DNA of 64,000 nt from an uncultured Pseudokineococcus sp. GTDB lineage: Bacteria > Actinomycetota > Actinomycetes > Actinomycetales > Quadrisphaeraceae. A program made the translations under genes and the position numbers. The notes under the pieces were generated by a model, which saw nothing but the letters and a program-made list of their open reading frames with translations, made no database searches and was not told the origin of the DNA. This document shows, piece after piece, positions 10,382 through 26,521 of this stretch. The stretch spans positions 62,001 through 126,000 of the forward strand of contig NZ_CANMPM010000004.1 of NCBI RefSeq assembly GCF_947499845.1, written 5' to 3'. Position 1 is the first letter of the stretch, and the number at the start of each line of letters is the position of its first letter.

Positions 10382-11377
10382 GTGGACTGGTCCTCGATCC
10401 TCGGCAACACCGCCCGCGCGGCCATCGGGCTGGAGACGGTCATCTACGCCCTCGCGGCGATCGGGCTCAACGTGCAGTTCGGCTACGCCGGCCTGCTCAA
10501 CTTCGGGCAGGCGGCGTTCGTCGCCGTCGGGGCGTACGGCATCGCCGTCACCGTGACCGTGCTCGGGCTGCCCTTCTGGCTCGGCGTCGTCGTCGGCCTC
10601 GTCGCCGCGGTGCTGCTGGCGGTGCTCCTCGGCATCCCGACGCTGCGCCTGCGCGCCGACTACCTCGCCATCGCCACCATCGCCGCGGCGGAGATCGTGC
10701 GCCTCACCGTCCGCAGCGCCACGCTGCGCGACCAGACCGGCGGCTCGAGCGGGCTCTCCGGCTTCGCCGAGGGGTTCTACGACCTCAACCCCTTCACCCC
10801 CGGGCAGTCCTACGGCTTCGGGCCCTGGGTCTTCGGCGCACGGCTGGCGTGGATCCTCGTCGTCGGGTGGGTCCTGGTGGCCGTGTGCTGCCTCGTCGTC
10901 TTCCTGCTCATGCGCAGCCCCTGGGGCCGCGTGCTCAAGGGCATCCGCGAGGACGAGGACGCCGTCCGCAGCCTCGGCAAGAACGTCTACGCCTACAAGA
11001 TGCAGGCGCTCGTCATCGGCGGCGTCATCGGCGCGCTGGCCGGCTTCGTCTTCGGCGTCGGCCGCGCCTCGGTGCAGCCGGACCTCTACGGCACGGAGCT
11101 GACGTTCTTCGTCTACACCGTGCTCCTGCTCGGCGGCGCGGCGCGCGTCCTCGGGCCCGTGGTCGGCGCGGCGATCTTCTGGGTGGCGCTCGTCCTCATC
11201 GAGAACGTGCTCGTGCAGGCCGTCGGCGCCGGCTACGTCCCCGACTGGCTGATGTCGTCCACCCAGGTGGGCCAGGTGCGCTTCATGCTCGTCGGGCTCG
11301 CGCTCATGCTGCTCATGATCTTCAGGCCGCAAGGCATCTTCGGCGACCGGAGGGAGCTGGCGATCGATGCCCGCTGA
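10382..11377 (+). CDS. livM: Branched-chain amino acid ABC permease LivM
   Basis: The second membrane subunit of the importer, 331 residues with about ten hydrophobic segments. The LivM pattern is visible in LNVQFGYAGLLNFGQAAFVAVGAYG near the N-terminus, TLRLRADYLAIATIAAAEI in the middle, and IREDEDAVRSLGKNVYAYKMQAL, the cytoplasmic loop that couples to the ATPases. The GTG follows livH by 13 nt with GGAG upstream. Its last codons overlap the livG start by 11 nt, so the two are probably translationally coupled. Confidence 0.95.
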   Translation: MDWSSILGNTARAAIGLETVIYALAAIGLNVQFGYAGLLNFGQAAFVAVGAYGIAVTVTVLGLPFWLGVVVGLVAAVLLAVLLGIPTLRLRADYLAIATIAAAEIVRLTVRSATLRDQTGGSSGLSGFAEGFYDLNPFTPGQSYGFGPWVFGARLAWILVVGWVLVAVCCLVVFLLMRSPWGRVLKGIREDEDAVRSLGKNVYAYKMQALVIGGVIGALAGFVFGVGRASVQPDLYGTELTFFVYTVLLLGGAARVLGPVVGAAIFWVALVLIENVLVQAVGAGYVPDWLMSSTQVGQVRFMLVGLALMLLMIFRPQGIFGDRRELAIDAR

Positions 11378-12379
11378 CGAGAACCGCCCCGACCTGACCG
11401 ACCTCGACGAGGGCGCCCCCCACGAGGGCCACGGCGGGAGCCACCCGGCCACCGCCCCGGGTCCCGGGCCGCGCGCCCTCGCCGCCCGTGAGGTGCTCCG
11501 CGACGTCCCCCGGGTGCCGGGGGCGCCCAAGCCCGACCCCGTGCTCGTCGCCGACGGCGTCGTGCGCCGCTTCGGCGGGCTCACGGCCGTCGACGTGCAG
11601 CACGTGGAGTTCCAGCGCGGCGCCATCACGGCCCTCATCGGGCCCAACGGCGCCGGCAAGACGACGTTCTTCAACCTCCTCACGGGGTTCGACCGGCCCG
11701 ACGAGGGCTCGTGGACCTTCGAGGGCCGCAGCCTCGCCCGGGTGCCGGCGCACCGCGTCGCCCGTCGCGGCATGGTCCGCACCTTCCAGCTGACGAAGGC
11801 GCTCTCGCGGCTCACCGTCATCGAGAACATGCGCCTCGGCGCCACCGGCCAGGTGGGCGAGCGGCTGCTGTCGGCGATGTTCCGGCGGGTGTGGCGCGGC
11901 CAGGAGGACTCCAACACGCGGCGCGCCGACGAGCTGCTGCGGCGCTTCAAGCTCGACGCCAAGCGCGAGGACTTCGCGGGCAGCCTCTCCGGCGGGCAGC
12001 GCAAGCTGCTGGAGATGGCCCGCGCCCTCATGACCGAGCCGCGGCTCGTCATGCTCGACGAGCCGATGGCCGGGGTGAACCCGGCGCTCACCCAGTCGCT
12101 CCTCGGGCACGTCAAGGACCTGCGGGAGCAGGGCATGACGGTCGTCTTCGTCGAGCACGACATGGACATGGTCCGCGACATCTCGGACTGGGTGGTCGTC
12201 ATGGCCCAGGGCACCGTCGTCGCGGAGGGTCCCCCGGACGCCGTCATGGCGGACCCGGCGGTCATCGACGCCTACCTCGGGGGCCACCACGACGCCCCGC
12301 TGACCGAGGAGGACGAGGCCGAGCAGATCGCCGCCGCCGAGGCGGAGCTCGAGCGGGAGCGCGACCAGGAGGTCGGACG

Positions 12380-12383
<4 letters not shown>
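11367..12383 (+). CDS. livG: Branched-chain amino acid ABC transporter ATPase LivG
   Basis: An ABC ATPase of the LivG type (338 residues) that powers import with LivF. Walker A is GPNGAGKTTFFN (about residue 95), the signature LSGGQRKLLEMARAL, Walker B LVMLDEPMAGVNP and the switch histidine VEHDMDMV. About 55 disordered residues precede the ATPase core and about 25 charged residues follow it, making it longer than the usual 250-260. The ATG at 11367 overlaps the end of livM, and its stop overlaps livF as ATGA. Confidence 0.95.
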
Positions 12384-13156
<773 letters not shown>

Positions 13157-13183
13157 GCCGCCGTCCGACGCCCCGCCGCGGTC

Positions 13184-13218
13184 GACGCCCGGTCCCCCGT
13201 CCAGGGGGGCCGGGCGTC
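13184..13218 (+). terminator. Terminator of the livHMGF operon
   Basis: A 9-bp outer stem GACGCCCGG / CCGGGCGTC (13184-13192 with 13210-13218) continues through a T.G pair into a CCCCC/GGGGG stem, with a 5-nt loop. It begins 28 nt after the livF stop. Confidence 0.8.
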
Positions 13219-13279
13219 GTCGCGTCCGGGCCCCGGCGCCGCGGCCGCCCTCCCGGCCGGGGCGCACCCCGGACGAGGC

Positions 13280-13316
13280 GGAGCCCCGGCCCCCCGCAGC
13301 GGGGGACCGGGGCTCC
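13280..13316 (-). terminator. Terminator of livK
   Basis: GGAGCCCCGG pairs with CCGGGGCTCC; after one mismatch a CCCCC/GGGGG stem follows, closed by GCAGC. It lies 35 nt beyond the livK stop on the minus strand. Confidence 0.75.
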
Positions 13317-13350
13317 GGTGGTGCGGCTCCACGGCGTGGAGCGGGTCGGC

Positions 13351-14700
13351 TCAGTCGAGCGAGCCCTCCACGTAGGAGTCGTTCACGTAGCTGTTGTCCT
13401 CGACGTAGGAGTAGATGCCGATGGTGGCCTCCGTCGGGTCGCCGAGGTCCGAGAACTCGACCGGGCCGGACACGCCCTGGTAGTCGATGTCCTCGCCGGC
13501 CTCGAGCAGGTCGCGGCACTCGACGAAGCCCGAGCACTCCGTCCCCTCGCGGCTGACCGCCGGCAGCTGCGAGGCGATGCTCGCCCCGCTGTCGTCGCCG
13601 GCCGCGATGGCCGCCAGCGCCGTCATGATGACGGCGTCGTAGGACTCCGGCGCGTAGCTGAAGTCCGCCAGCGACGGGTCGACGGCGAGCAGGCGCTCCT
13701 GGAAGTCACCCGTTGAGGCGGCGCCGGGCAGGGTGCCCTTCGTGCCCACGAGCGCGCCCGGCTCGAGGCCGTCGTCGCTGTAGTTCGCCAGGTTGCCGTC
13801 CACGAGGTAGAGCGGCACCTCGCTCGGGCCGATGCCCTGGGAGATGAGCTCGGGGATGACGCGCAGCGACTCGTCGAAGCCGATGAGGACGATGGCCTCC
13901 GGGTTCGTCTCCGCGAGCTGGGCGACCTCCGCGCTGTAGTTCGGCGCCTGCGGGTTGTAGATGATCGGGTCACCGCCGGCGATGCTGCCGCCGCCGGCCT
14001 CGACCGCCTCCTGCACGTTGGCCGCGAGGCCCGTGCCGTACGGGTCGTCGATGGCCATCATGCCGACGTCGAGGTACCCGTCGCCGATCACGAGGTCGCC
14101 CATCACGCGGCCCTGGAGCACGTCCGAGGGGGCCGTGCGGAAGTACAGGCCGGAGTCGCTCGCGCAGGTGAAGTCCGGCGCCGTGTTCGCCGGCGAGATC
14201 TGCACGACCCCGGCGCCGGTGATGGCGTCGATGATGGTGAAGGAGACGCCCGAGGACGCCGCGCCGATGATCGAGTCGACGTTCGCGGACAGGAGCCGCT
14301 GGACCGTCGACGAGGCGATGTCGGTGTTGGTGTCACCGGAGTCGCCCTCGACGTAGGCGACGTCCTGGCCGTTGTAGCCGCCGGCCTCGTTGATCTCCTG
14401 CACCGCCAGCTCGACGCCGGCGAACTCCGGCGGGCCGAGGAAGGCCAGGTTGCCGGTCTGCGGCAGGACGGAGCCGATGGTGAGGACGCCGTCGCCCTCC
14501 GCCTCCGGCGGGGTCTCGGGCTCGCAGTCCTCGGAGCCCGCGGCGGCGTCGTCGGACGACGACGAGCTCGCGCTCGGCTCGCCCGAGGCGGCCGGCGCCG
14601 CGCCGTCGTCGGTCCCGCCGTCGTCACCGCACCCGGTGAGGGCGAGGGCTGCGATGCCGGCCACGGCGACGGACCGCCGCGCCAGGGTGGTTCGCTTCAT
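13351..14700 (-). CDS. livK: Branched-chain amino acid binding lipoprotein LivK-like
   Basis: A type-1 periplasmic-binding-fold protein (Peripla_BP_6) that captures substrate for the LivHMGF importer. The N-terminus MKRTTLARRSVAVAGIAALALTGC has a basic n-region and a lipobox ending in Cys24, so it should be lipid-anchored after processing by Lgt, which is also encoded in this window. A Ser/Asp/Glu-rich linker follows, then GVLTIGSVLPQTGNLAFLGPPE and AVQEINEAGGYNGQDV, typical of the family. Length is 449 residues. The ATG is preceded by AGGAG at good spacing, and TACGGT (14756-14761) may be the -10. Ligand specificity within the family (amino acids, amides, urea) cannot be fixed. Confidence 0.93.
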   Translation of the reverse strand: MKRTTLARRSVAVAGIAALALTGCGDDGGTDDGAAPAASGEPSASSSSSDDAAAGSEDCEPETPPEAEGDGVLTIGSVLPQTGNLAFLGPPEFAGVELAVQEINEAGGYNGQDVAYVEGDSGDTNTDIASSTVQRLLSANVDSIIGAASSGVSFTIIDAITGAGVVQISPANTAPDFTCASDSGLYFRTAPSDVLQGRVMGDLVIGDGYLDVGMMAIDDPYGTGLAANVQEAVEAGGGSIAGGDPIIYNPQAPNYSAEVAQLAETNPEAIVLIGFDESLRVIPELISQGIGPSEVPLYLVDGNLANYSDDGLEPGALVGTKGTLPGAASTGDFQERLLAVDPSLADFSYAPESYDAVIMTALAAIAAGDDSGASIASQLPAVSREGTECSGFVECRDLLEAGEDIDYQGVSGPVEFSDLGDPTEATIGIYSYVEDNSYVNDSYVEGSLD

Positions 14701-14755
14701 GCAGGGCTCTCCTTCGTCCCAGCGGCTGAGCGCTGAGGTCCAGTAGGTGAGCCGG

Positions 14756-14761
14756 ACCGTA
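14756..14761 (-). promoter_or_regulatory. Candidate -10 of livK
   Basis: TACGGT on the minus strand would start transcription near 14749, leaving about 50 nt of leader with an AGGAG site. No -35 match was seen. Confidence 0.35.
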
Positions 14762-14913
14762 CTCGACGGGCGCCCCCCACGGGCCGGGCCCGGACCGATC
14801 CGCCGCGTCGTCACCCCATCGTGACCCTGGCTCCGCCGCACCGTGACCCGCTGCACGAGCAGGCCGCTCGCGCCGGGCCGCCGGGCCGCCCCCGCGGCGG
14901 CCCGGCGGCGTCC

Positions 14914-15573
14914 TCAGCGGCTGCCGCCGCCGACCTGCTCCAGCACCACGTCCGCCACCTCGCGCATCGTGAGGCGGCGGTCCATCGACGTCTTCTGGAT
15001 CCAGCGGAAGGCCTCCGGCTCGGACAGGCCCATCTGCTGCATGAGCAGGCCCTTGGCCCGCTCGACCCTCTTGCGGGTCTCGAACCGCTCGGTGAGGTCG
15101 GACACCTCGTCCTCGAGGGCCCGCAGCTCCGCGTGGCGGCTCAGCGCGATCTCCACGGCCGGCAGGAGGTCCGCCGACGTGAAGGGCTTGACCACGTACG
15201 CCATCGCCCCGGCGTCGCGCGCCCGGTCCACGAGCTCCTTCTGCGAGAACGCCGTGAGCAGGACGACCGCCGACCGGCCCGAGCGCCCGATCCGCTCCGC
15301 GGCCGAGATGCCGTCCAGCACCGGCATCTTCACGTCCATCACGACGAGGTCGGGCGTCATCTCCTCGACGAGGCGCACCGCGCTCTCTCCGTCGCCCGCC
15401 TCCCCGACGACGTCGAAGCCCGCCTCCGTCAGCGTCTCCACCACGTCGAGGCGGATGATCGCCTCGTCCTCGGCGACGACGACGCGCCGACGCGGACCCT
15501 GGGGGACGTCGACGTCCTCCGCTCCCGTGGTCGGTCCGCTGCTGGCCTCGGGGCTGGGGGGCTGCTCGCTCAC
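14914..15573 (-). CDS. pdtaR: ANTAR-domain response regulator (PdtaR-like)
   Basis: A two-domain response regulator of 219 residues. The receiver has the acidic pair ED (about 35-36), the phosphorylation site in VVMDVKMP (Asp80) and the lysine in YVVKPF. A coiled linker leads to an ANTAR RNA-binding domain (TERFETRKRVERAKGLLMQQMG through MREVADVVLEQ). In mycobacteria the PdtaR homologue, phosphorylated by PdtaS, acts by antitermination on dual-hairpin RNAs. The locus beside pyk and upstream of polA/rpsA is conserved. The GTG at 15573 is chosen because TAGGGT lies exactly 7 nt upstream. The first 28 residues are disordered. Confidence 0.92.
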   Translation of the reverse strand: MSEQPPSPEASSGPTTGAEDVDVPQGPRRRVVVAEDEAIIRLDVVETLTEAGFDVVGEAGDGESAVRLVEEMTPDLVVMDVKMPVLDGISAAERIGRSGRSAVVLLTAFSQKELVDRARDAGAMAYVVKPFTSADLLPAVEIALSRHAELRALEDEVSDLTERFETRKRVERAKGLLMQQMGLSEPEAFRWIQKTSMDRRLTMREVADVVLEQVGGGSR

Positions 15574-15580
15574 GTCGGCT

Positions 15581-15586
15581 ACCCTA
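15581..15586 (-). promoter_or_regulatory. -10 element of pdtaR (leaderless type)
   Basis: TAGGGT on the minus strand, 7 nt before the GTG of the ANTAR regulator. Confidence 0.65.
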
Positions 15587-15662
15587 TCCGCGCATCCGGG
15601 CGACGACGCCCGGGCCGCCGCAGCGCGTCCGTCCCGGCCCCACGGCCCCGACCGCCCGGCCC

Positions 15663-15736
15663 GCCCCGGTATCCCAACCGGCAGAGGAAGTGGCCTCAAA
15701 ATCCACGCAGTGTGGGTTCGAGTCCCACCCGGGGCA
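15663..15736 (+). tRNA. tRNA-Leu(CAA)-like, short variable loop
   Basis: A cloverleaf can be drawn by eye. The acceptor GCCCCGG pairs with CCGGGGC. The D-arm is short and its loop contains AACCGGCAGA. The anticodon arm is GTGGC-CTCAAAA-TCCAC, with a C.T mismatch next to the loop. The T-arm GTGGG-TTCGAGT-CCCAC is perfect and the discriminator is A. The anticodon at 15697-15699 is CAA (Leu, UUG). The variable region is only 5 nt (15707-15711), whereas normal tRNA-Leu is class II with a long variable arm. A full CCA is not encoded. It is a conserved type of locus next to pdtaR and pyk, so it is likely functional, but its charging identity is uncertain. Confidence 0.8.
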
Positions 15737-15752
15737 CCTCTCGCGGCCCGCT

Positions 15753-15779
15753 GGGCCCGCCGCTCGTGCGGTCGGGCCC
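15753..15779 (+). terminator. Terminator of the tRNA gene
   Basis: GGGCCCGCCG pairs with CGG-T-CGGGCCC around a 6-nt loop, beginning 17 nt after the tRNA discriminator base. Confidence 0.65.
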
Positions 15780-15798
15780 GTCGTGGTCGGGCCGGGAC

Positions 15799-15904
15799 GG
15801 CGGGGGGCGGTCGGTGCGACGGCACTGGCTCCGACGTCCCCGCGGGGCAGTGGCCCCGCCGGGACGTCGGGCCTAACGTGCCGCCCCACCGACCGCCCCC
15901 CGCC
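15799..15904. repeat. 106-nt long imperfect hairpin between tRNA and pyk
   Basis: A nested inverted repeat folds into one long hairpin. The outer arms (15799-15816 and 15887-15904) match perfectly over 18 bp. Inside, 15820-15825 pairs with 15878-15883 (6 bp) and 15827-15829 with 15871-15873. Then 15831-15840 pairs with 15861-15870 (10 bp) and 15842-15848 with 15853-15859 (7 bp), ending in a 4-nt loop. About 44 pairs form in 106 nt. It is separate from the tRNA terminator and from the pyk terminator. No known family was recognised; it could be a structured RNA, a strong bidirectional terminator or a small palindromic element. Confidence 0.7.
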
Positions 15905-15944
15905 TGCGCGCCTCACCGGCCCGTGGGCCCGCTCGGACGGCGAC

Positions 15945-15978
15945 GGCCCACCCGGTCACGTCGGTGACCGGGTGGGCC
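15945..15978 (-). terminator. Terminator of pyk
   Basis: A perfect 15-bp stem GGCCCACCCGGTCAC / GTGACCGGGTGGGCC with a GTCG loop, 37 nt beyond the pyk stop on the minus strand. Confidence 0.88.
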
Positions 15979-16015
15979 GGTGCTGTCGGAGGGCCGGTGG
16001 TGTCGAAGGGTGGCG

Positions 16016-17653: not shown

Positions 17654-19147
17654 TCAGACGACGAGCGGCCGGTCCGTCGGGCGCACCGGGGCGGGCAGCG
17701 TGCTGGGCCGCCCGGAGAGCCGGGCGTCGATCGCGGCCGCCGCGGCGCGGCCCTCCGCGATGGCCCAGACGATGAGCGACTGCCCCCGGCCGGCGTCACC
17801 GGCGACGAAGACGCCGGGGACCGACGTCGCGTACGAGCCGTCGCGGGCGACGAGGCCGCGCTCGTCGAGGTCGACGCCCACCTCGTCCAGCAGCGGGCCG
17901 CGCTCGGGGCCCGTGTAGCCCGTGGCGATGAGGACGAGCTGGGTGTCGAGCACCTCCTCGGTGCCCGGGACCGGCCGCACCTCGCGGCCCACGCGCTCGG
18001 CCTGGACGATCTCCAGGCCCGCGACCCGGCCGTCCTCCCCCGCGACGAAGCGGGTGGTGGAAGCGGTGAAGCGGCGGTCGCCGCCCTCCTCGTGGGCGCT
18101 CGTCACCTCGAACAGGCGCGGGTCGACGGGCCAGGGCTCGCCCGCCGACCGCTCGGCGGGCGGCTGCGGCCCGTGGGCCAGCTGCGTCACCGAGCGGGCG
18201 CCCTGGCGCAGGGCCGTGCCGAGGCAGTCGGCGCCCGTGTCGCCGCCGCCGATGATGACGACGTCGCGGCCGCGGGCGTCGAGCTCCCCGGGCACGTCGC
18301 GGCCCTCCGGCCCCTCCCCCGCGCCGCGGGCGGCGCGGTTGGCGGGCACGAGGTAGTCCATCGCCGGCATGACGCCGGGCAGGTCGCGACCGGGCACGGG
18401 CAGGTCGCGGGGCGCCGTGGCGCCGACCGCCAGGAGCACCGCGTCGTAGCGGGCGACGAGCGCCGCGCCCGACACGGCGCCCGGGGCGCTGCCGCCGACG
18501 GGTGTGCCCGGGCGGAAGCGGGTCCCCTCCGCGGCCATCTGGGCCAGGCGGGCGTCGAGGAGGTCCTTCTCCATCTTGAACTCGGGGATGCCGTACCGGA
18601 GCAGCCCGCCGATGGCGTCGTCGCGCTCGTAGACGGCCACGGTGTGGCCGGCGCGGGTGAGCTGCTGCGCGGCGGCCAGGCCCGCGGGGCCGGACCCGAC
18701 GACGGCGACGGTGCGCCCGGTCAGGCGGTCGGGGGGCTGCGGGACGACCCACCCCTCGGCGAAGGCCCGGTCGGCGATCGACACCTCGACCTGCTTGATC
18801 GTCACCGGCGGCTGGTTGATGCCGAGGACGCAGGCGCTCTCGCACGGCGCCGGGCACAGCCGCCCCGTCACCTCGGGGAAGTTGTTCGTCGCGTGCAGCC
18901 GCTCGACGGCCTCGGCCCAGTCCCCGCGCCACGTGAGGTCGTTCCACTCCGGGATGAGGTTGCCCAGCGGGCAGCCCTGGTGGCAGAAGGGGATGCCGCA
19001 GTCCATGCAGCGGCCCGCCTGCCGCAGCAGCGCGCCCTCCTCCTGCTTCTCGTAGACCTCGCGCCAGTCCATGATCCGGACGTCCACCGGGCGGCGCTGC
19101 GGCAGCTCGCGCTCGCGCTGGGTGAGGAAGCCCTTCGGGTCAGCCAT
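17654..19147 (-). CDS. gltD: Glutamate synthase (NADPH) small subunit
   Basis: The beta subunit passes electrons from NADPH through FAD and Fe-S centres to GltB, for glutamate synthesis from glutamine and 2-oxoglutarate. The N-terminus has two cysteine clusters ([17 protein letters not shown] and [15 protein letters not shown]) for [4Fe-4S] centres. The FAD motif [14 protein letters not shown] (about residue 155) and the NADPH motif [15 protein letters not shown] (about 300) follow, with a closing [18 protein letters not shown] flavin motif. Length is 497 residues, normal for GltD. The ATG at 19147 overlaps the gltB stop by 8 nt, so translation is coupled. Confidence 0.97.
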
Positions 19148-22100
19148 GCGTCGTCGCCTCCACGATCCGGCCCCAGACGACGTCGCCGTCGAGGTCCAGC
19201 CCCTCCTCGGCCGCCTGCGCCCGCACGGCGAGCACGCGGGAGAACTCCCGGGGCAGCAGCTTGGTGATGCGGTCCAGGCCCGCGTCGCCCTGCTCGAGCA
19301 GGGCGGCCGCGACCTCCGACCCGGTCTCGTCGCGGTGGCGCACGAGCAGGTCGGCCACGAGCACCCGGTCGGCCTCGTCGAGCGGGTGCAGCCCGAGCTC
19401 CCCGCTGCGCACGGCCGCCTGGTTGACCTCGGCCTCGTCGAGGTCGAGCACGTACGCCGTGCCGCCGGACATGCCCGCCGCCACGTTGCGGCCGGTGCCG
19501 CCGAGAACGAGCACGGTGCCACCGGTCATGTACTCGCAGGCGTGGTCGCCCACGCCCTCGACGACGGCGATGGCGCCGGAGTTGCGGACGCAGAAGCGCT
19601 CCCCGACGACGCCGCGCAGGAACATCTCCCCCGACGTCGCGCCGTAGCCGATCGTGTTGCCGGCGATGACGTTGTCCTGCGCCGGGAAGGGCGCGGCGTC
19701 GTCGGGGCGGACCACCACGCGGCCGCCCGACAGGCCCTTGCCGACGTAGTCGTTGGCGTCCCCGACGAGGCGCAGCACGACCCCACGGGGCAGGAAGGCG
19801 CCGAAGGACTGGCCGGCGCTGCCCGTCAGGATCACGTCGACGGTGCCGTCGGGCAGGCCCTGCTCGCCGTAGCGGCGGGTGACCTCGTGGCCGAGCATCG
19901 TGCCGACGGTGCGGTTGACGTTGCGCACCGCGCTCGCGACCCGCACCGGCGTGCCGTGCTCGAGGGCGTCGCGGGACATCGCGATGAGCTGGTGGTCGAG
20001 GGCCTTCTCGAGGCCGTGGTCCTGGCTCGTCGTGCGCCGGCGCGAGGCGCCCTCGGGCAGCTCGACCTGGTGCAGGACCGGGCCGAGGTCGAGCCCGGAG
20101 GCCTTCCAGTGGTCGACGGCGCGGCGGACGTCGAGGGCGTCGCTGCGACCGATGGCCTCGTCGAGCGAGCGGAAGCCCAGCGCCGCGAGGTGCTCGCGCA
20201 CCTCCTGCGCCACGAACTCGAAGAAGCTCACGACGAAGTCGGCCTTGCCGCCGTACCGCGCCCGCAGCTCGGGGTTCTGCGTCGCGATCCCGACGGGGCA
20301 CGTGTCGAGGTGGCAGGCGCGCATGAGGATGCAGCCGGAGACGACGAGCGGCGCCGTCGAGAAGCCGTACTCCTCGGCGCCGAGGAGCGCCGCCACGACG
20401 ACGTCGCGGCCCGTCTTCAGCTGGCCGTCGACCTGGACCGTGATCCGGTCGCGCAGGCCGTTGAGCAGCAGCGTCTGCTGCGCCTCGGCCAGCCCGACCT
20501 CCCACGGCCCGCCCGCGTGCTTGAGCGACGTCAGCGGGCTGGCGCCCGTGCCGCCGTCGTGGCCGGAGATGAGGACCACGTCCGCGTGCGCCTTGCTCAC
20601 GCCCGCCGCGACCGTCCCGACGCCGATCTCGCTGACGAGCTTGACGTGCACGCGCGCCGACGGGTTGGCGTTCTTGAGGTCGTGGATGAGCTGGGCGATG
20701 TCCTCGATCGAGTAGATGTCGTGGTGCGGCGGCGGCGAGATGAGGCCGACGCCCGGCGTCGAGAAGCGCGTCCGCGCGATCCACGGGTAGACCTTGTGGC
20801 CCGGCAGCTGACCGCCCTCACCCGGCTTGGCGCCCTGCGCGATCTTGATCTGCAGGTCGTCGGCGTGGGTGAGGTACATGCTCGTCACGCCGAAGCGCCC
20901 CGAGGCGACCTGCTTGACGGCGCTGCGGCGCTCCGGGTCGAGCAGGCGCTCGACGTCCTCGCCGCCCTCGCCGGTGTTGCTGCGCCCGCCCAGGCGGTTC
21001 ATCGCGACCGCGAGGGTGGAGTGCGCCTCCTCGGAGATGGAGCCGTAGCTCATCGCGCCCGTCGAGAAGCGCTTGACGATCTCGCTGACCGGCTCGACCT
21101 CGTCGATCGGGACCGGCGGGCGGGCGCCCTCGCGGAAGGAGAAGAGGCCGCGGAGCGTCATGAGCCGCTCGGAGGAGTCGTCGACCCGCTGCGTGTACTG
21201 CTTGAAGACGTCGTAGCGCCCCGCGCGGGTGGCGTGCTGCAGGCGGAAGACCGTCTCCGGGTCGAAGAGGTGGTGCTCGCCCTCGCGGCGCCACTGGTAC
21301 TCCCCGCCCACCTCGAGGCGCCGGTGCGCGGGCTGCACGCCCCCGACGGGGTAGGCGGTGCGGTGGCGGGCGGCGACCTCCTCGGCGAGGACGTCGATGC
21401 CGACGCCGCCGAGCTGCGTCGTCGTGCCCGTGAAGTACCGGTCGACGAGCTCCTGGGACAGGCCGATGGTCTCGAAGGTCTGCGCGCCCCGGTAGGAGGC
21501 GACCGTCGAGATGCCCATCTTGCTCATGACCTTGAGCACGCCCTTGCCGAGCGCGTAGATGAGCCGGCGGACGGCGTCCTCGGGCGCGATGCCGGTGAGG
21601 TGGCCGGAGCGGACCTGGTCCTCCACCGACTCCATCGCCAGGTACGGGTTCACGGCCGCCGCGCCGTACCCGACGAGCAGGGCGACGTGGTGGACCTCGC
21701 GGACGTCACCCGCCTCGACGACGAGCCCGACCTGGGTGCGGGTCTTCTCCCGCAGCAGGTGGTGGTGGACGGCCGCGGTGAGCAGCAGCGAGGGGATGGG
21801 CGCCAGCACGGAGTCCGAGTCGCGGTCCGACAGGACGACGAAGCGGGCGCCGTCGGCGATGGCCGCGCTCACCTCGGCGCAGATCTCGTCGATCCGGGCC
21901 GCCAGGGCCGCTCCCCCGCCGTCGACCCGGTACAGGCCGGACACGCGGACGCAGCGGAAGCCGGGGAGGTTGCCGTCGGCGTTGACGTGGACGATCTTCG
22001 CGAGCTCGTCGTTGTCGATGACCGGGAAGGGGATGACGAGCTGGCGGCAGTGCGCCGGGCCGGCGTCGAGCATGTTCTGCTCCGGGCCCACGCCCGTGAC

Positions 22101-23762
22101 GAGCGACGTCACCAGCTCCTCGCGGATGGCGTCCAGCGGCGGGTTGGTCACCTGCGCGAACATCTGCGTGAAGTAGTCGAAGACGAGCCGGGGACGCTCC
22201 GAGAGCACGGCGATCGGCGTGTCGGTGCCCATCGAGCCGATGGGCTCGGCCCCCGCCCGCGCCATCGGCGCGACGAGCAGGCGCAGCTCCTCCTCGGTGT
22301 AGCCGAAGGTCTGCTGGCGGCGGGTCACCGAGGAGTGCGTGTGCGCGACGTGCTCGCGCTCGGGCAGCCCGTCGAGCGTGACGAGGCCGGCGTGCAGCCA
22401 CTCGTCGTAGGGGTGCGCCGCTGCGAGCTCGGCCTTGACCTCCTCGTCGTCGACCACGCGCCCCGCGGCCGTGTCGACGAGGAACATGCGCCCGGGCTGC
22501 AGGCGCCCCTTGCGCACGACGGTGGCGGGGTCGAGGTCGAGCACGCCCGTCTCGCTGGCGAGGACGACGAGGCCGTCGGAGGTGATCGAGTACCGCGAGG
22601 GGCGCAGGCCGTTGCGGTCGAGCACCGCGCCGATGAGCGTGCCGTCGGTGAAGACGACGTCGGCCGGGCCGTCCCACGCCTCCGTGAACATCGAGTGGAA
22701 CTCGTAGAAGGCGCGGCGGGCCGGGTCCATGGAGGCGTGGTTCTCCCAGGCCTCCGGGATCATCATGAGCATCGCGTGCGGCAGCGAGCGGCCGGACAGG
22801 TGCAGCAGCTCGAGCACCTCGTCGAACGACGCGGAGTCGCTGGCGCCCGGCGTGCAGACGGGGAAGATCCGCTGGAGGTCGCCGGGGATGACCGACGAGC
22901 TGAGCATGCTCTCCCGCGCCCGCATCCAGTTGCGGTTGCCCTGGACGGTGTTGATCTCGCCGTTGTGGGCGATGAGGCGGAACGGGTGCGCCAGCGGCCA
23001 CGACGGGAAGGTGTTGGTCGAGAAGCGCGAGTGCACGACGGCGAGCTCGGTCGTGTAGCGCCGGTCCGACAGGTCGGGGAAGAAGGGCTCCAGCTGGCCC
23101 GTCGTCAGCATCCCCTTGTAGGTGATGGTGCGGCACGAGAGCGACGCGACGTAGACGCCGACCTCGCGCTCCGTGCGCTTGCGCAGGCAGAAGGCCCGGC
23201 GCTCGAGGGCCATGCCCGTGATGCGCGCGCCACGGCCGGCGACGAAGAGCTGCCGGAAGCGCGGCATCGTGGCGCGGGCGGTGGCGCCGACGAGCTCGGC
23301 TGCGACGGGCACGTCCCGCCAGCCGAGGACGGCGAGGTCCTCCTCCTCCGCGAGGGCCTCGACGCGGCGCACGGCCTCGGCCGCCGCGTCGTCCTCGGCG
23401 GGCAGGAAGACGATGCCGACGGCGTAGGCGCCCTTGGGCGGGAGCTCGACGCCCATCTCCTCCTCCGCCAGGGCGCGGAAGAGGTCGTCGGGGACCTGCG
23501 TGAGGATCCCGGCGCCGTCACCGGTGTCGACCTCGGCGCCCACGGCGCCGCGGTGGTCGAGGTTGCGCAGGGCGGTGAGCGCGGCGTCGACGATGTCGTG
23601 GCCCGGCTCGCCGCGCAGCGTCGCGACGAAGGCCACGCCGCACGCGTCGTGCTCGTGGCGCCCGTCGTAGAGGCCCTGCGGGGCCGGGACGGCGACGGCG
23701 CGGGGTCCGGGCGCCGGGTTCTCGTGCTGGTCCTGCGGGCTGATCTGCGAGGTCGTCGTCAT
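19140..23762 (-). CDS. gltB: Glutamate synthase large subunit
   Basis: The alpha subunit of GOGAT, 1540 residues. The glutaminase (Ntn-type) domain begins at Cys41 in [16 protein letters not shown], so a 40-residue propeptide must be removed to expose the catalytic Cys. The central domain, FMN-binding synthase domain ([33 protein letters not shown]) and 3Fe-4S cysteines ([15 protein letters not shown]) follow. The C-terminal GXGXG beta-helix repeats ([21 protein letters not shown]) are complete. The chosen ATG gives [10 protein letters not shown]; another ATG four codons upstream is possible. Upstream is a regulatory region with phased GTGA repeats. Confidence 0.97.
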
Positions 23763-23867
23763 GCGTCGCACCATCCTCACGGGGACCGCCGGGGCGGTCG
23801 ACGTGCCCCGCCGGCGGGCCGGCGGGACGGGGGACGGGAGGGGACGTCGTCGGCCCCGGGTCGGGAG

Positions 23868-23873
23868 AAGGTA
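23868..23873 (-). promoter_or_regulatory. -10 element of gltBD
   Basis: TACCTT on the minus strand would start transcription near 23861, giving about a 100-nt leader. No good -35 is present, consistent with an activator-dependent promoter. Confidence 0.45.
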
Positions 23874-23931
23874 CACCGGGGGCCGCGGCGCCCCGGCGGT
23901 CGATCCACCCCGCGAGACCACCGTCGGCGCG

Positions 23932-23968
23932 GTGACCGGGTCGTGACCGTGACGTGATCGCGGCGTGA
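23932..23968. promoter_or_regulatory. Four 11-bp phased GTGA repeats upstream of gltB
   Basis: On the plus strand GTGA begins at 23932, 23943, 23954 and 23965, exactly 11 bp apart, with an extra copy at 23949. Read on the gltB strand this gives GTCAC-N6-GTCAC. OmpR-type regulators such as GlnR, PhoP and MtrA bind GT(N)AC-like half-sites at 11-bp spacing. The position, about 70-100 bp upstream of the gltB transcription start, fits an activator. GlnR is the most attractive candidate because it controls nitrogen genes, but that is inference. Confidence 0.55.
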
Positions 23969-24174
23969 TGCCGGGGTCGGGCGTGCCCACCCGGTCGTGA
24001 CGCGACGTCGCAGGGAGGCCGGACGCCGCTCGCGCTGAGCTGGGCGCGCGCAGCTCCGGGGCCGGTGGCGCGAGCCGGTCCGTCGAGCGGTGTCCGGTGG
24101 CTGCGCACAGGACGGTGGAGCGGGGTCTCGTCCACAGACCACGGGACCGGCGCGGCGCTGTCGGACCCCGCCCC

Positions 24175-24180
24175 TAGCCT
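24175..24180 (+). promoter_or_regulatory. -10 element of the HNH gene (leaderless type)
   Basis: TAGCCT is followed by 7 nt and a GTG (24188) in the HNH reading frame. Confidence 0.65.
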
Positions 24181-24187
24181 CGTACAC

Positions 24188-26521
24188 GTGTTCGAGATGG
24201 GCGTGAGCGGGAGCGAGGGGGACGACGCCGTCCTGCCGTCCGCCTCGCCTCGCGCCGCTCGTGGCGCCGGCGCCCCTGACGCGACGGGTGCTGCCGGGGA
24301 CCAGGACGGCGGCGCCTCCGAGCTCGTGCGAGAGGCCGGTCGCGTGCGGTCGGCGGTGCGCGCCGGCGCGCTGGGCCGGGTGCAGGCGGTGGTCGCGCTG
24401 GAGGCGGCGCGGTCGGTGGCGTGGGCGGGGCTGCTGCGGCAGGTCGCCGCGCTGGTGGACGAGGTGTCGGTGTCGGGTGGGCCGGCGGCGCCGCTGGCCG
24501 ACGGCGGCGGGTCCGGCGCCGGTGACCGCGGGACGGGTGCGGTCGGTGTCGCGGTGCGGGATGGGGGCTCCGACCCGTGGTCTGGCCCCGGGTCTGACCC
24601 GGGGTCGGCGCCCGGGCCGACGTCGGGGTCGGGGCGGGACGTGGGCGTGGCGTTCGAGGCCGCCGCGGCCGAGCTGGCGGTCGCGCTGGTCGTGCCCTTG
24701 CGCCGGGCGCAGGACCTGGTCGCCGAGGCCCTCGCGGTCACCACCCGGCTGCCGGTCACGCTGGCGGCGTTGGAGGCCGGGCGGATCGACCCCCAGCGCT
24801 CCCGCCTGGTCGCCGAGGAGACCGTCGCCCTGTCCCCGGTGCACGCCGCGAAGGTCGACGCGGCCCTGGCCGACGACCTCGGCCCCCTCACCGTCCCCGC
24901 ACTGCGGGCCCGCGTGCGTCACCTCGTGGCGACGACCGACCCGCAGGCGGTGCGCCGGCGGGTGCGGCGCGCGACCTGCGCCCGCGGCGTGCGCCTGTTC
25001 CCCGTGGAGGACGGGATGGCCCAGCTGGTCGCGACGGGCCCGGTCATGGACCTGGCGTGCGTGTTCGAGCGGCTGACGACCACCGCCCGGGCCCGCGCCG
25101 GGGAGCACGGGCGCACCGACCCGCACGCCGCGACCACCGCCGGCCTGGACCCCCTCGCCCTGGGCGACGGTGCCGCCGCGGGGTTGCCCGACCGGCGGGG
25201 CATCGACGCGCGCCGCTTCGACGCCCTGGTCGACCTCGCCACCACCGACCCGGCCAGCACCACCGATCTGGTCGCCGGCGCTGATGCCCGTGCGGGTGCT
25301 CGCGGCGGGGCGACGGCCGGTGCGGACGCCGCCGGGACCGGGCAGTCGGCCTCGGCCATCGGCACGGCCACGTCCCGGGCGCGCAGCCCTCACGGCCCGC
25401 AGGTCACCGTGGCCCTGTCCAGCCTGCTGGGGCTGGATGACGACCCTGCCCAGCACCCCACCCTCGGACCCGTCCCGGCCGTGGCCGTCGCCGAGCTCCT
25501 CGCCGCCGGGCACCGCTTCCGCCGCGCCCTGACCGCACCGGTCACCGGCCACCTCGTCGGCCTCGACGGCCACCTGCTGACCCTCGACCCCAACACCACC
25601 AGGACCACGACGACGACGGCGACGTCGCCACCCGCCCCACCGCGGAAGGGCCCATGGAGCGCAGCCGCCCGACGCGGCCGCACAGCGGCGATCACCGTGC
25701 GCGTCGACACCCCCGACGGACCGGACGACCCCGCGCCACCATTGACATCGCTGACGCCTGACGTGACTCCCGCAGCCGCAGCGCCGTCGCCGCCTCCGCC
25801 GGGACCGGAACCGGGACCGGGACCGGGACCGAGCTCCTCACCTACCTCACGGCACACCTCGCTGCGCCACGCCGCCCGACGGTCCGCCTGCTCCTACGCC
25901 GCCGCGACCGGCGGACCCGGCCCCTACACGCCCACCGACGCCTGCGCCCGCTGGGTGCGCACCCGCTCACCCCGCTGCCAGGCCCCCGGCTGCCGGATGC
26001 CCGCCACCCGCTGCGACCTCGACCACCGCACCCCCCACGCCACCGGCGGACCGACGTGCCCGTGCAACCTCGACGTCCTCTGCCGGCGCCACCACCTCGC
26101 CAAGCACCACCACGGATGGACCGCCGTCCCGACCTCCGACGACCCCACCGACCCCTCCCTCACCTGGACCACCCCGCTCGGCCAGGTCGTGGACGTCCCG
26201 GCGCAGCCCCTGCTGCCGCGACCGGCGCCCCGCACCACCGACGACCACCGCGCGCAGACCGAGGCCGACGACGCGGCCGCCTCCGCCCTCGAGGACCACC
26301 TCCTCGGCCGACCCCGCTACCCCCACCGCGACAGCGCCGCCCACGACCTCGACCGCCTCCACGCCGAGCTCGCCCGGCAGCACGCCGAGACCGGCCGTCA
26401 GCGGCACGACGCCCTGCACGGCGAGGGCGGAGGCGCCGGTGACGGTCGCCCCGACGGCGACCCGACGCCTCCGGCTGACCGAGCAGGCGGATGGGGCGAC
26501 GACCACCCACCGCCGTACTGA
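24188..26521 (+). CDS. DUF222 domain-containing HNH endonuclease (13E12-repeat type)
   Basis: A 777-residue protein with a DUF222 domain over roughly residues 40-400 and a C-terminal HNH module at about 595-645. That module reads CQAPGC...CDLDHRTPHATGG...CPCNLDVLCRRHHLAKHHHGW, with paired cysteines for a structural metal and the His/Asp/Asn nuclease residues. Such proteins are encoded in multiple copies in many actinobacteria and resemble the mycobacterial 13E12 repeat family; their role is not known. Gly/Ala- and Pro-rich low-complexity stretches interrupt it, including a run of GGGACC hexamers near 25801-25830 coding for PGPEPGPGPGP. The GTG start is placed by the TAGCCT-N7 pattern. No partner genes or terminal repeats are visible. 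Confidence 0.88.
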   Translation: MFEMGVSGSEGDDAVLPSASPRAARGAGAPDATGAAGDQDGGASELVREAGRVRSAVRAGALGRVQAVVALEAARSVAWAGLLRQVAALVDEVSVSGGPAAPLADGGGSGAGDRGTGAVGVAVRDGGSDPWSGPGSDPGSAPGPTSGSGRDVGVAFEAAAAELAVALVVPLRRAQDLVAEALAVTTRLPVTLAALEAGRIDPQRSRLVAEETVALSPVHAAKVDAALADDLGPLTVPALRARVRHLVATTDPQAVRRRVRRATCARGVRLFPVEDGMAQLVATGPVMDLACVFERLTTTARARAGEHGRTDPHAATTAGLDPLALGDGAAAGLPDRRGIDARRFDALVDLATTDPASTTDLVAGADARAGARGGATAGADAAGTGQSASAIGTATSRARSPHGPQVTVALSSLLGLDDDPAQHPTLGPVPAVAVAELLAAGHRFRRALTAPVTGHLVGLDGHLLTLDPNTTRTTTTTATSPPAPPRKGPWSAAARRGRTAAITVRVDTPDGPDDPAPPLTSLTPDVTPAAAAPSPPPPGPEPGPGPGPSSSPTSRHTSLRHAARRSACSYAAATGGPGPYTPTDACARWVRTRSPRCQAPGCRMPATRCDLDHRTPHATGGPTCPCNLDVLCRRHHLAKHHHGWTAVPTSDDPTDPSLTWTTPLGQVVDVPAQPLLPRPAPRTTDDHRAQTEADDAAASALEDHLLGRPRYPHRDSAAHDLDRLHAELARQHAETGRQRHDALHGEGGGAGDGRPDGDPTPPADRAGGWGDDHPPPY

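Follow-up and report, generated by a model that had tools for sequence, protein, structure and literature searches.

A four-unit, 11-bp-phased array upstream of gltBD in Pseudokineococcus: a probable GlnR-type operator beside a conserved leader motif

In actinomycetes, the GlnR box is described as two 5-bp half-sites in direct repeat, GTnAC-n6-GTnAC, or in its less even form gTnAc-n6-GaAAc, and a list of consensus sequences is found in the available text of PMC10704036. The GAAAC-type b-site is the Streptomyces coelicolor consensus, and it is described as not obligatory in S. venezuelae. In this latter species, the accessible part of a ChIP study reports a GlnR peak at the glutamate synthase gene Sven_1677, the homologue of SCO2026, with the site GTAACCTGCACGAAAT; despite this peak, gltB mRNA was almost unaltered in a mutant of glnR (-1.1 fold at T30) (PMC3087709). 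In Mycobacterium smegmatis, on the other hand, GlnR raises both gltB and gltD, according to the portion of PMC3662644 at hand. GlnR may also have company on its boxes: extracts of two papers (PMC9045223, PMC6988585) describe MtrA as binding to GlnR boxes and repressing nitrogen genes in Streptomyces, and PhoP as sharing some of the GlnR/MtrA sites.

The locus considered here lies in a 64,000-nucleotide stretch of DNA from an uncultured Pseudokineococcus sp., the whole of which is called the window below. It was compared with its counterparts in the genus, making four Pseudokineococcus genomes in all: its own (G000), G001, G002 (P. marinus) and G003. Among named genomes, a gltB search brought up P. 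marinus JCM 14547, with 99% identity along the query. The features on which the argument depends are the following.

17654..19201 (as translated in this stretch), minus strand: gltD-like small subunit gene, after gltB, with Fer4_20 and Pyr_redox_2 domains.
19140..23762, minus strand: gltB, glutamate synthase large subunit, with GATase_2, Glu_syn_central, Glu_synthase and GXGXG domains.
23770..23777, minus strand: AGGATGGT, a Shine-Dalgarno-like element before the gltB start; in other genomes AGGAYGGT co-occurs with the leader motif.
23841..23856, minus strand: leader motif GGGCCGACGACGTCCC, just after the -10 and near the presumed 5' end of the gltB transcript; a candidate hairpin.
23868..23873, minus strand: TACCTT, the -10-like hexamer of the gltB promoter, the same in all four Pseudokineococcus genomes.
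23902..23919, minus strand: block GGTCTCGCGGGGTGGATC (also given as GGTCTCGCG), between the array and the -10, identical in G000, G002 and G003 and absent from G001.
23932..23969, minus strand: four-unit array phased at 11 bp, the proposed GlnR-type operator.
23949..23952, plus strand: one more GTGA, not in step with the 11-bp phase; P. marinus has lost it but keeps the four phased units.

Direct reading confirms what the earlier note had seen on the forward strand, namely four GTGA starting at 23932, 23943, 23954 and 23965 with a step of 11 bp; the copy at 23949 and another at 23997 were not in its list. Read on the gltB strand from 23969 down to 23932, the array is ATCAC-GCCGCG-ATCAC-GTCACG-GTCAC-GACCCG-GTCAC, with its units at 23969-23965, 23958-23954, 23947-23943 and 23936-23932. 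It occupies the stretch from 170 to 207 bp upstream of the gltB start codon (ATG at 23762, minus strand), with a gap of 58 bases to the -10-like TACCTT (23873-23868). The same note had placed the array about 70-100 bp upstream of a promoter devoid of a -35. By eye, no -35 hexamer is recognisable at the usual distance from TACCTT. Counted from a transcription start that we infer near 23861, the array covers roughly -71 to -108. As a side observation, a palindrome-like element, GTCTCGCGATGTGAGATAGC, similar to GGTCTCGCGGGGTGGATC at 23902-23919, recurs before gltB in each of the six genomes that make up the genus labelled g4 (L008-L013).

Beyond the array lies a DUF222 gene (24197-26521), divergent from gltB and of the 13E12 type, with lgt on its far side. 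Could the array be an operator of this divergent gene instead? Such an assignment is disfavoured: in G003, lgt adjoins gltB with no DUF222 gene between them, three phased units are still present, and because they persist with lgt as the next gene upstream, the array belongs with gltB. The adjacency of lgt and gltB in G003 suggests that the DUF222 gene itself was inserted immediately upstream of the array.

The spacing of the array is not a matter of chance. The four-unit pattern occurs once in the window, where none of 100 dinucleotide shuffles gave any, and once in the 3.72 Mb of the organism's own genome, for which a reversed control had 0 matches. When the 322 occurrences of TCAC on both strands of the window were scanned at steps of 5-30 bp, runs of three or four were found solely at step 11. 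Random placement of six GTGA in the 425-bp intergenic stretch gave four equally stepped copies in 28 of 200,000 trials, and 20,000 base shuffles of the same stretch produced no run of four and two runs of three. The 11-bp direct-repeat operators of the OmpR family contain at least two head-to-tail half-sites at this step, and here there are four.

A search of the four Pseudokineococcus genomes for a three-unit RTCAC-n6 pattern finds it upstream of gltB and nowhere else in G000, G002 and G003; G001 has it once, at a different place, and the reversed control gives 0. The array is kept at gltB in three of the four and absent from G001. Between P. marinus and our genome the array shows two base changes; both fall in linkers, and one of them abolishes the out-of-phase TCAC. 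G003 has three phased GTCAC units and a GTCGC one step upstream; its linkers have changed, while the distance from array to leader is the same within 1 bp. In G001, the most divergent congener, the region upstream of gltB holds no comparable site, its best score with the GlnR matrix described below being -2.7, which speaks against a GlnR reading. The sole three-unit RTCAC array of G001 at 11 bp (L014:1501-1527) lies upstream of a secreted-protein-like gene, beside a pdxS-like gene, both genes being named by eye.

A wider comparison covered the gltB upstream regions of 117 genomes from the order and the family, 19 of the 136 gltB-positive genomes having been left out. GTnAC or GAAAC words on either strand are set at 11 bp in 17 of these regions, from 7 families, whereas 50 block shuffles of the 117 averaged 0.4 regions and never exceeded 2, and no other step from 5 to 39 is present in more than 6 regions. 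In a second set of 79 loci from named genomes, the 11-bp pair occurs in 7 and tops all steps (the next has 4), while 200 shuffles averaged 0.35 and never went above 3; as the two sets overlap in species and include many close relatives, these counts are not independent events. Against GlnR it must be said that 100 of the 117 order regions have no such pair, and that among the 12 gltB regions of the family the pair is seen only in G000, G002 and G003.

These comparisons also bear on whether the array has any present function at all, or is simply a repeat, fortuitous or in decay, within a GC-rich spacer. A lack of function would fit its absence from G001 and from the sampled other genera of the family, and only four congeners can be compared. 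Yet chance runs are absent or very rare in the shuffles and random placements, the phased units are kept while the linkers and the out-of-phase copy change, and 11-bp pairs are enriched at gltB in 7 families, all of which makes a functionless array very unlikely.

Which regulator, then, would occupy it? Eleven matches to the Trans_reg_C domain are found in the genome. One protein (L020) carries the Pfam domain GlnR_1st (149.5 bits for a cut-off of 27) followed by Trans_reg_C. Searched against the PDB, it comes closest to 8hih (E 1e-90), 8hig and 8hml, which we take to be GlnR structures although they are not so titled, and it also matches 4o1h, titled GlnR (E 2.7e-25); compared with NCBIfam, it finds no model above its cut-off. 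On these matches L020 is GlnR, and the organism encodes this regulator. Two other candidates are encoded as well: L022 is MtrA (NCBIfam MtrA, 390 bits for a cut-off of 300; PDB 2gwr, E 2.7e-102), and L021 is RegX3-like, with 2oqr (regX3) as its best PDB match (E 1.2e-111).

Other nitrogen promoters of the genus carry arrays of the same kind. Upstream of glnA (L140-L143), all four Pseudokineococcus genomes have GCAAC-n6-GAAAC-n6-G(TG/AC/TC)AC-n6-GCAAC at the 11-bp step, with one GAAAC unit in each genome and GTCAC as the third unit in G001. Upstream of amtB, again in four out of four, stands GACAC-n6-GTAAC-n17-GTAAC, the last GTAAC coming 22 bp further on. The forms that prevail at these two genes are missing from gltB, where the array has no GAAAC, GTAAC or GCAAC unit, and this counts against GlnR; by the S. 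venezuelae definition, an array lacking GAAAC may nevertheless be a GlnR box. Compared with GTnAC-n6-GTnAC, the promoter-proximal box fits exactly, and the two distal ATCAC units are each one base off.

For scoring, a GlnR matrix of 16 positions was built from the 39 MEME-marked sites of the S. venezuelae GlnR ChIP-chip regions, a training set in which the S. venezuelae gltB site is 1 of the 39 (PMC3087709). Among the 127,970 positions of the 64 kb window on both strands, the proximal pair GTCAC-n6-GTCAC ranks second with all 16 positions and first with the half-sites only. With 12.6 it falls short of the training mean (15.5), to the detriment of the GlnR reading; the G003 array scores 14.5. 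In a set of 196 gltB upstream regions, a score of 15 or more is reached by 33, whereas 15 shuffles averaged 2.3 such regions and never had more than 5. The other top match in the window, GTCACCCCATCGTGAC at 14810-14825, lies by eye upstream of a minus-strand gene starting near 14700. The matrix does not separate GlnR from PHO boxes, since the PHO boxes upstream of pstS score 13.5 to 15.4 in the four genomes, all above the 12.6 of the window array.

This last result raises the question of whether the array is itself a PHO box. RegX3, which is the PhoP of Streptomyces, would in that case bind the 11-bp direct repeats and link gltBD to phosphate supply. A RegX3-like protein is encoded, the 11-nt GTTCACC units of PHO boxes share TCAC and the 11-bp step with the array, and the two promoter-proximal units match 11 of the 14 letters of GTTCACC-N4-GTTCACC, a fit equalled at one other position of the window and bettered at none. 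A PHO box, however, has GTTCAC in each 11-bp unit, whereas the gltB units read GGTCAC or NATCAC, with G or A in place of the T, and all three units of G003 are GGTCAC. The genus does use the canonical word, because pstS carries GTTCACC at both units in all four genomes (14 of 14 letters, as counted for G000). With perfect GTTCACC units at pstS and none at gltB, this assignment was rejected as first choice, and we regard it as scarcely probable.

MtrA deserves more weight. It might be the primary ligand, sitting on GlnR-like boxes to repress gltBD when nitrogen is plentiful, either alone or in competition with GlnR. MtrA is encoded, its reported recognition of GlnR boxes and repression of nitrogen genes in Streptomyces speak in its favour, and so does the position of the only three-unit array of G001, ahead of a gene whose product is, by eye, a secreted protein. 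MtrA sites themselves resemble the array in having two short direct repeats, which stand in a loosely conserved site of 17 to 18 nt, as far as the available extracts describe them; the sign differs, the reported effect being repression of nitrogen genes in rich medium. No usable MtrA matrix was found in the accessible parts of PMC5650626 and PMC5487470. On the other side, half-site words of the same type recur with the same spacing at glnA and amtB, gltB is a nitrogen-assimilation gene, and competition with GlnR would keep GlnR as a ligand of the site. That the array is primarily an MtrA operator is an unlikely reading.

The ligand is thus most likely GlnR, even though letters by themselves cannot tell GlnR from MtrA, and the array is probably a GlnR-type operator that helps to switch on gltBD when nitrogen is short. 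It would act in cis as the operator of gltBD through four 5-bp half-sites set about one helical turn (11 bp) apart, on which two dimers of an OmpR-family winged-helix regulator could lie side by side along one face of the DNA. The regulator would dock some 70 to 110 bp upstream of the promoter without a visible -35. If this regulator is GlnR, acting as an activator under nitrogen limitation, glutamate synthase would rise together with glnA (glutamine synthetase) and amtB (ammonium transporter). The half-site logic of OmpR-family activators invoked in the earlier note finds support in the 11-bp phasing, the conservation and the matrix rank. Neither of the two outcomes that the note had named as refuting it came about: in 3 of 4 Pseudokineococcus genomes the array retains its half-sites and their spacing, with pairs also in 17 of 117 gltB regions from 7 families, and the GlnR-matrix score is above background (rank 1 or 2 of 127,970), though PHO boxes also score high. 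Its choice of GlnR as the natural candidate gains from the matrix rank and from the 11-bp pairs in relatives; it is tempered by the reported binding of MtrA to GlnR boxes, by the higher scores of the PHO boxes and by the absence of such a site from G001.

The array is followed, about 75 bp downstream, by a second conserved element, the motif GGGCCRNNGNCGTCCC, which lies near the presumed start of gltB transcripts in many Actinomycetia. The pattern NGGCCRNNGNCGYCCN (position 11 being C or A) is present near the gltB start in 69 of the 117 order regions, from 12 families; G083 and G093 were left out of the leader set as misplaced matches, as was G107 in one comparison. Among 80 named loci, 58 have the motif by the strict pattern, 4 more by a relaxed one, and 18 are without it. 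Those that have it include Nocardioides, Cellulomonas, Cellulosimicrobium, Promicromonospora, Kribbella (relaxed pattern) and a Frankiaceae genome, while it was not found in the Corynebacterium, Nocardia and Amycolatopsis loci examined. In the window, the pattern alone gives 7 matches for 4.8 expected. A covariance model ranks the gltB leader first there with 30.4 bits against 20.3 for the next match, the leader being itself among the 59 sequences of the model. It also puts gltB first in all four Pseudokineococcus genomes, with weak E-values (0.037 to 0.168) and many matches close behind in these GC-rich genomes, 150 of about 11,000 to 16,000 candidates having been scored per genome. The 4227 covariance models of Rfam, run on 23500-24500, gave a single match up to E 5 (E 4.6), away from the leader motif, and no description of a gltB leader element was found in the literature searched, which included the available portions of PMC2864571 and PMC1262725.

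Does this motif fold? The search pattern selects its own fixed letters, forcing pyrimidines at motif positions 4 and 13, and so only the variable positions and the flanks count as evidence of structure. For an 8-pair hairpin in 59 sequences, 73.1% of the cells are standard pairs, compared with 66.8% in shuffles (0/500 as high) and at most 50.0% when the pairing is slid. Covariation scores 0.186, where shuffles give 0.107 (0/500 as high) and slid pairings up to 0.158. Two other measures in the same sequences do not depart from shuffles: 5 pairs changed on both sides (270/500 as high) and 20 further pair types (128/500 as high). In 100 non-redundant leaders, the hairpin folds at a mean of -9.9 with its own flanks versus -8.6 with swapped ones, and none of 60 swaps was as low. 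When the 118-nt leader of the window is folded, it is no more stable than its shuffled versions (z -0.70), and its minimum-energy fold does not contain the local hairpin.

Of 151 regions with the leader motif, 79 also carry the Shine-Dalgarno-like AGGAYGGT, against 2 of the 45 that lack the motif, an association that may reflect phylogeny. Pairing between the leader CGUCC and the GGAYG of this element was considered but is not borne out by covariation: of the 15 sequences with C at position 13, 13 have AGGAYGGT, one of them being the misplaced match G093, and all 13 keep the A opposite. The leader motif is perhaps an RNA hairpin, or possibly a DNA operator at the start site. Taken with the array, it suggests a two-tier control of gltBD that we put forward tentatively, as possible rather than probable: in Pseudokineococcus, a GlnR-type array would drive the promoter, and the transcript would begin with a conserved hairpin, GG(G)CC-R-NNGN-CGUCC, marking gltB mRNAs over much of the Actinomycetia as an undescribed cis-regulatory RNA (or a start-site DNA operator) that controls the supply of glutamate synthase. 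The gltB leader is the less ordinary and more open question of the two. If real, it would be a gene-specific element spread over many families at a central nitrogen-assimilation operon, and as such would open a new way into how glutamate synthesis is controlled.

How does the array itself stand beside the systems already described? It would extend GlnR-type control of GOGAT to Pseudokineococcus, a genus named in none of the papers found by a literature search for it, and as a clean four-unit array made of RTCAC only, it could serve to measure competition between GlnR, MtrA and RegX3. From the GlnR boxes of other actinomycetes this candidate differs in being all RTCAC, with neither GAAAC nor GTAAC among its units, and in missing from one of four congeners. 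It follows the plan of the glnA array of these genomes, four units at 11 bp, with RTCAC at each of the four. The likeness to GlnR boxes lies in the 5-bp half-sites, the n6 linkers and the 11-bp step, in the two boxes set in tandem, four units in all, ahead of a nitrogen-assimilation operon of an organism that encodes GlnR, and in the occupancy by S. venezuelae GlnR of its own glutamate synthase promoter. The array is most likely a known type of operator at a new address.
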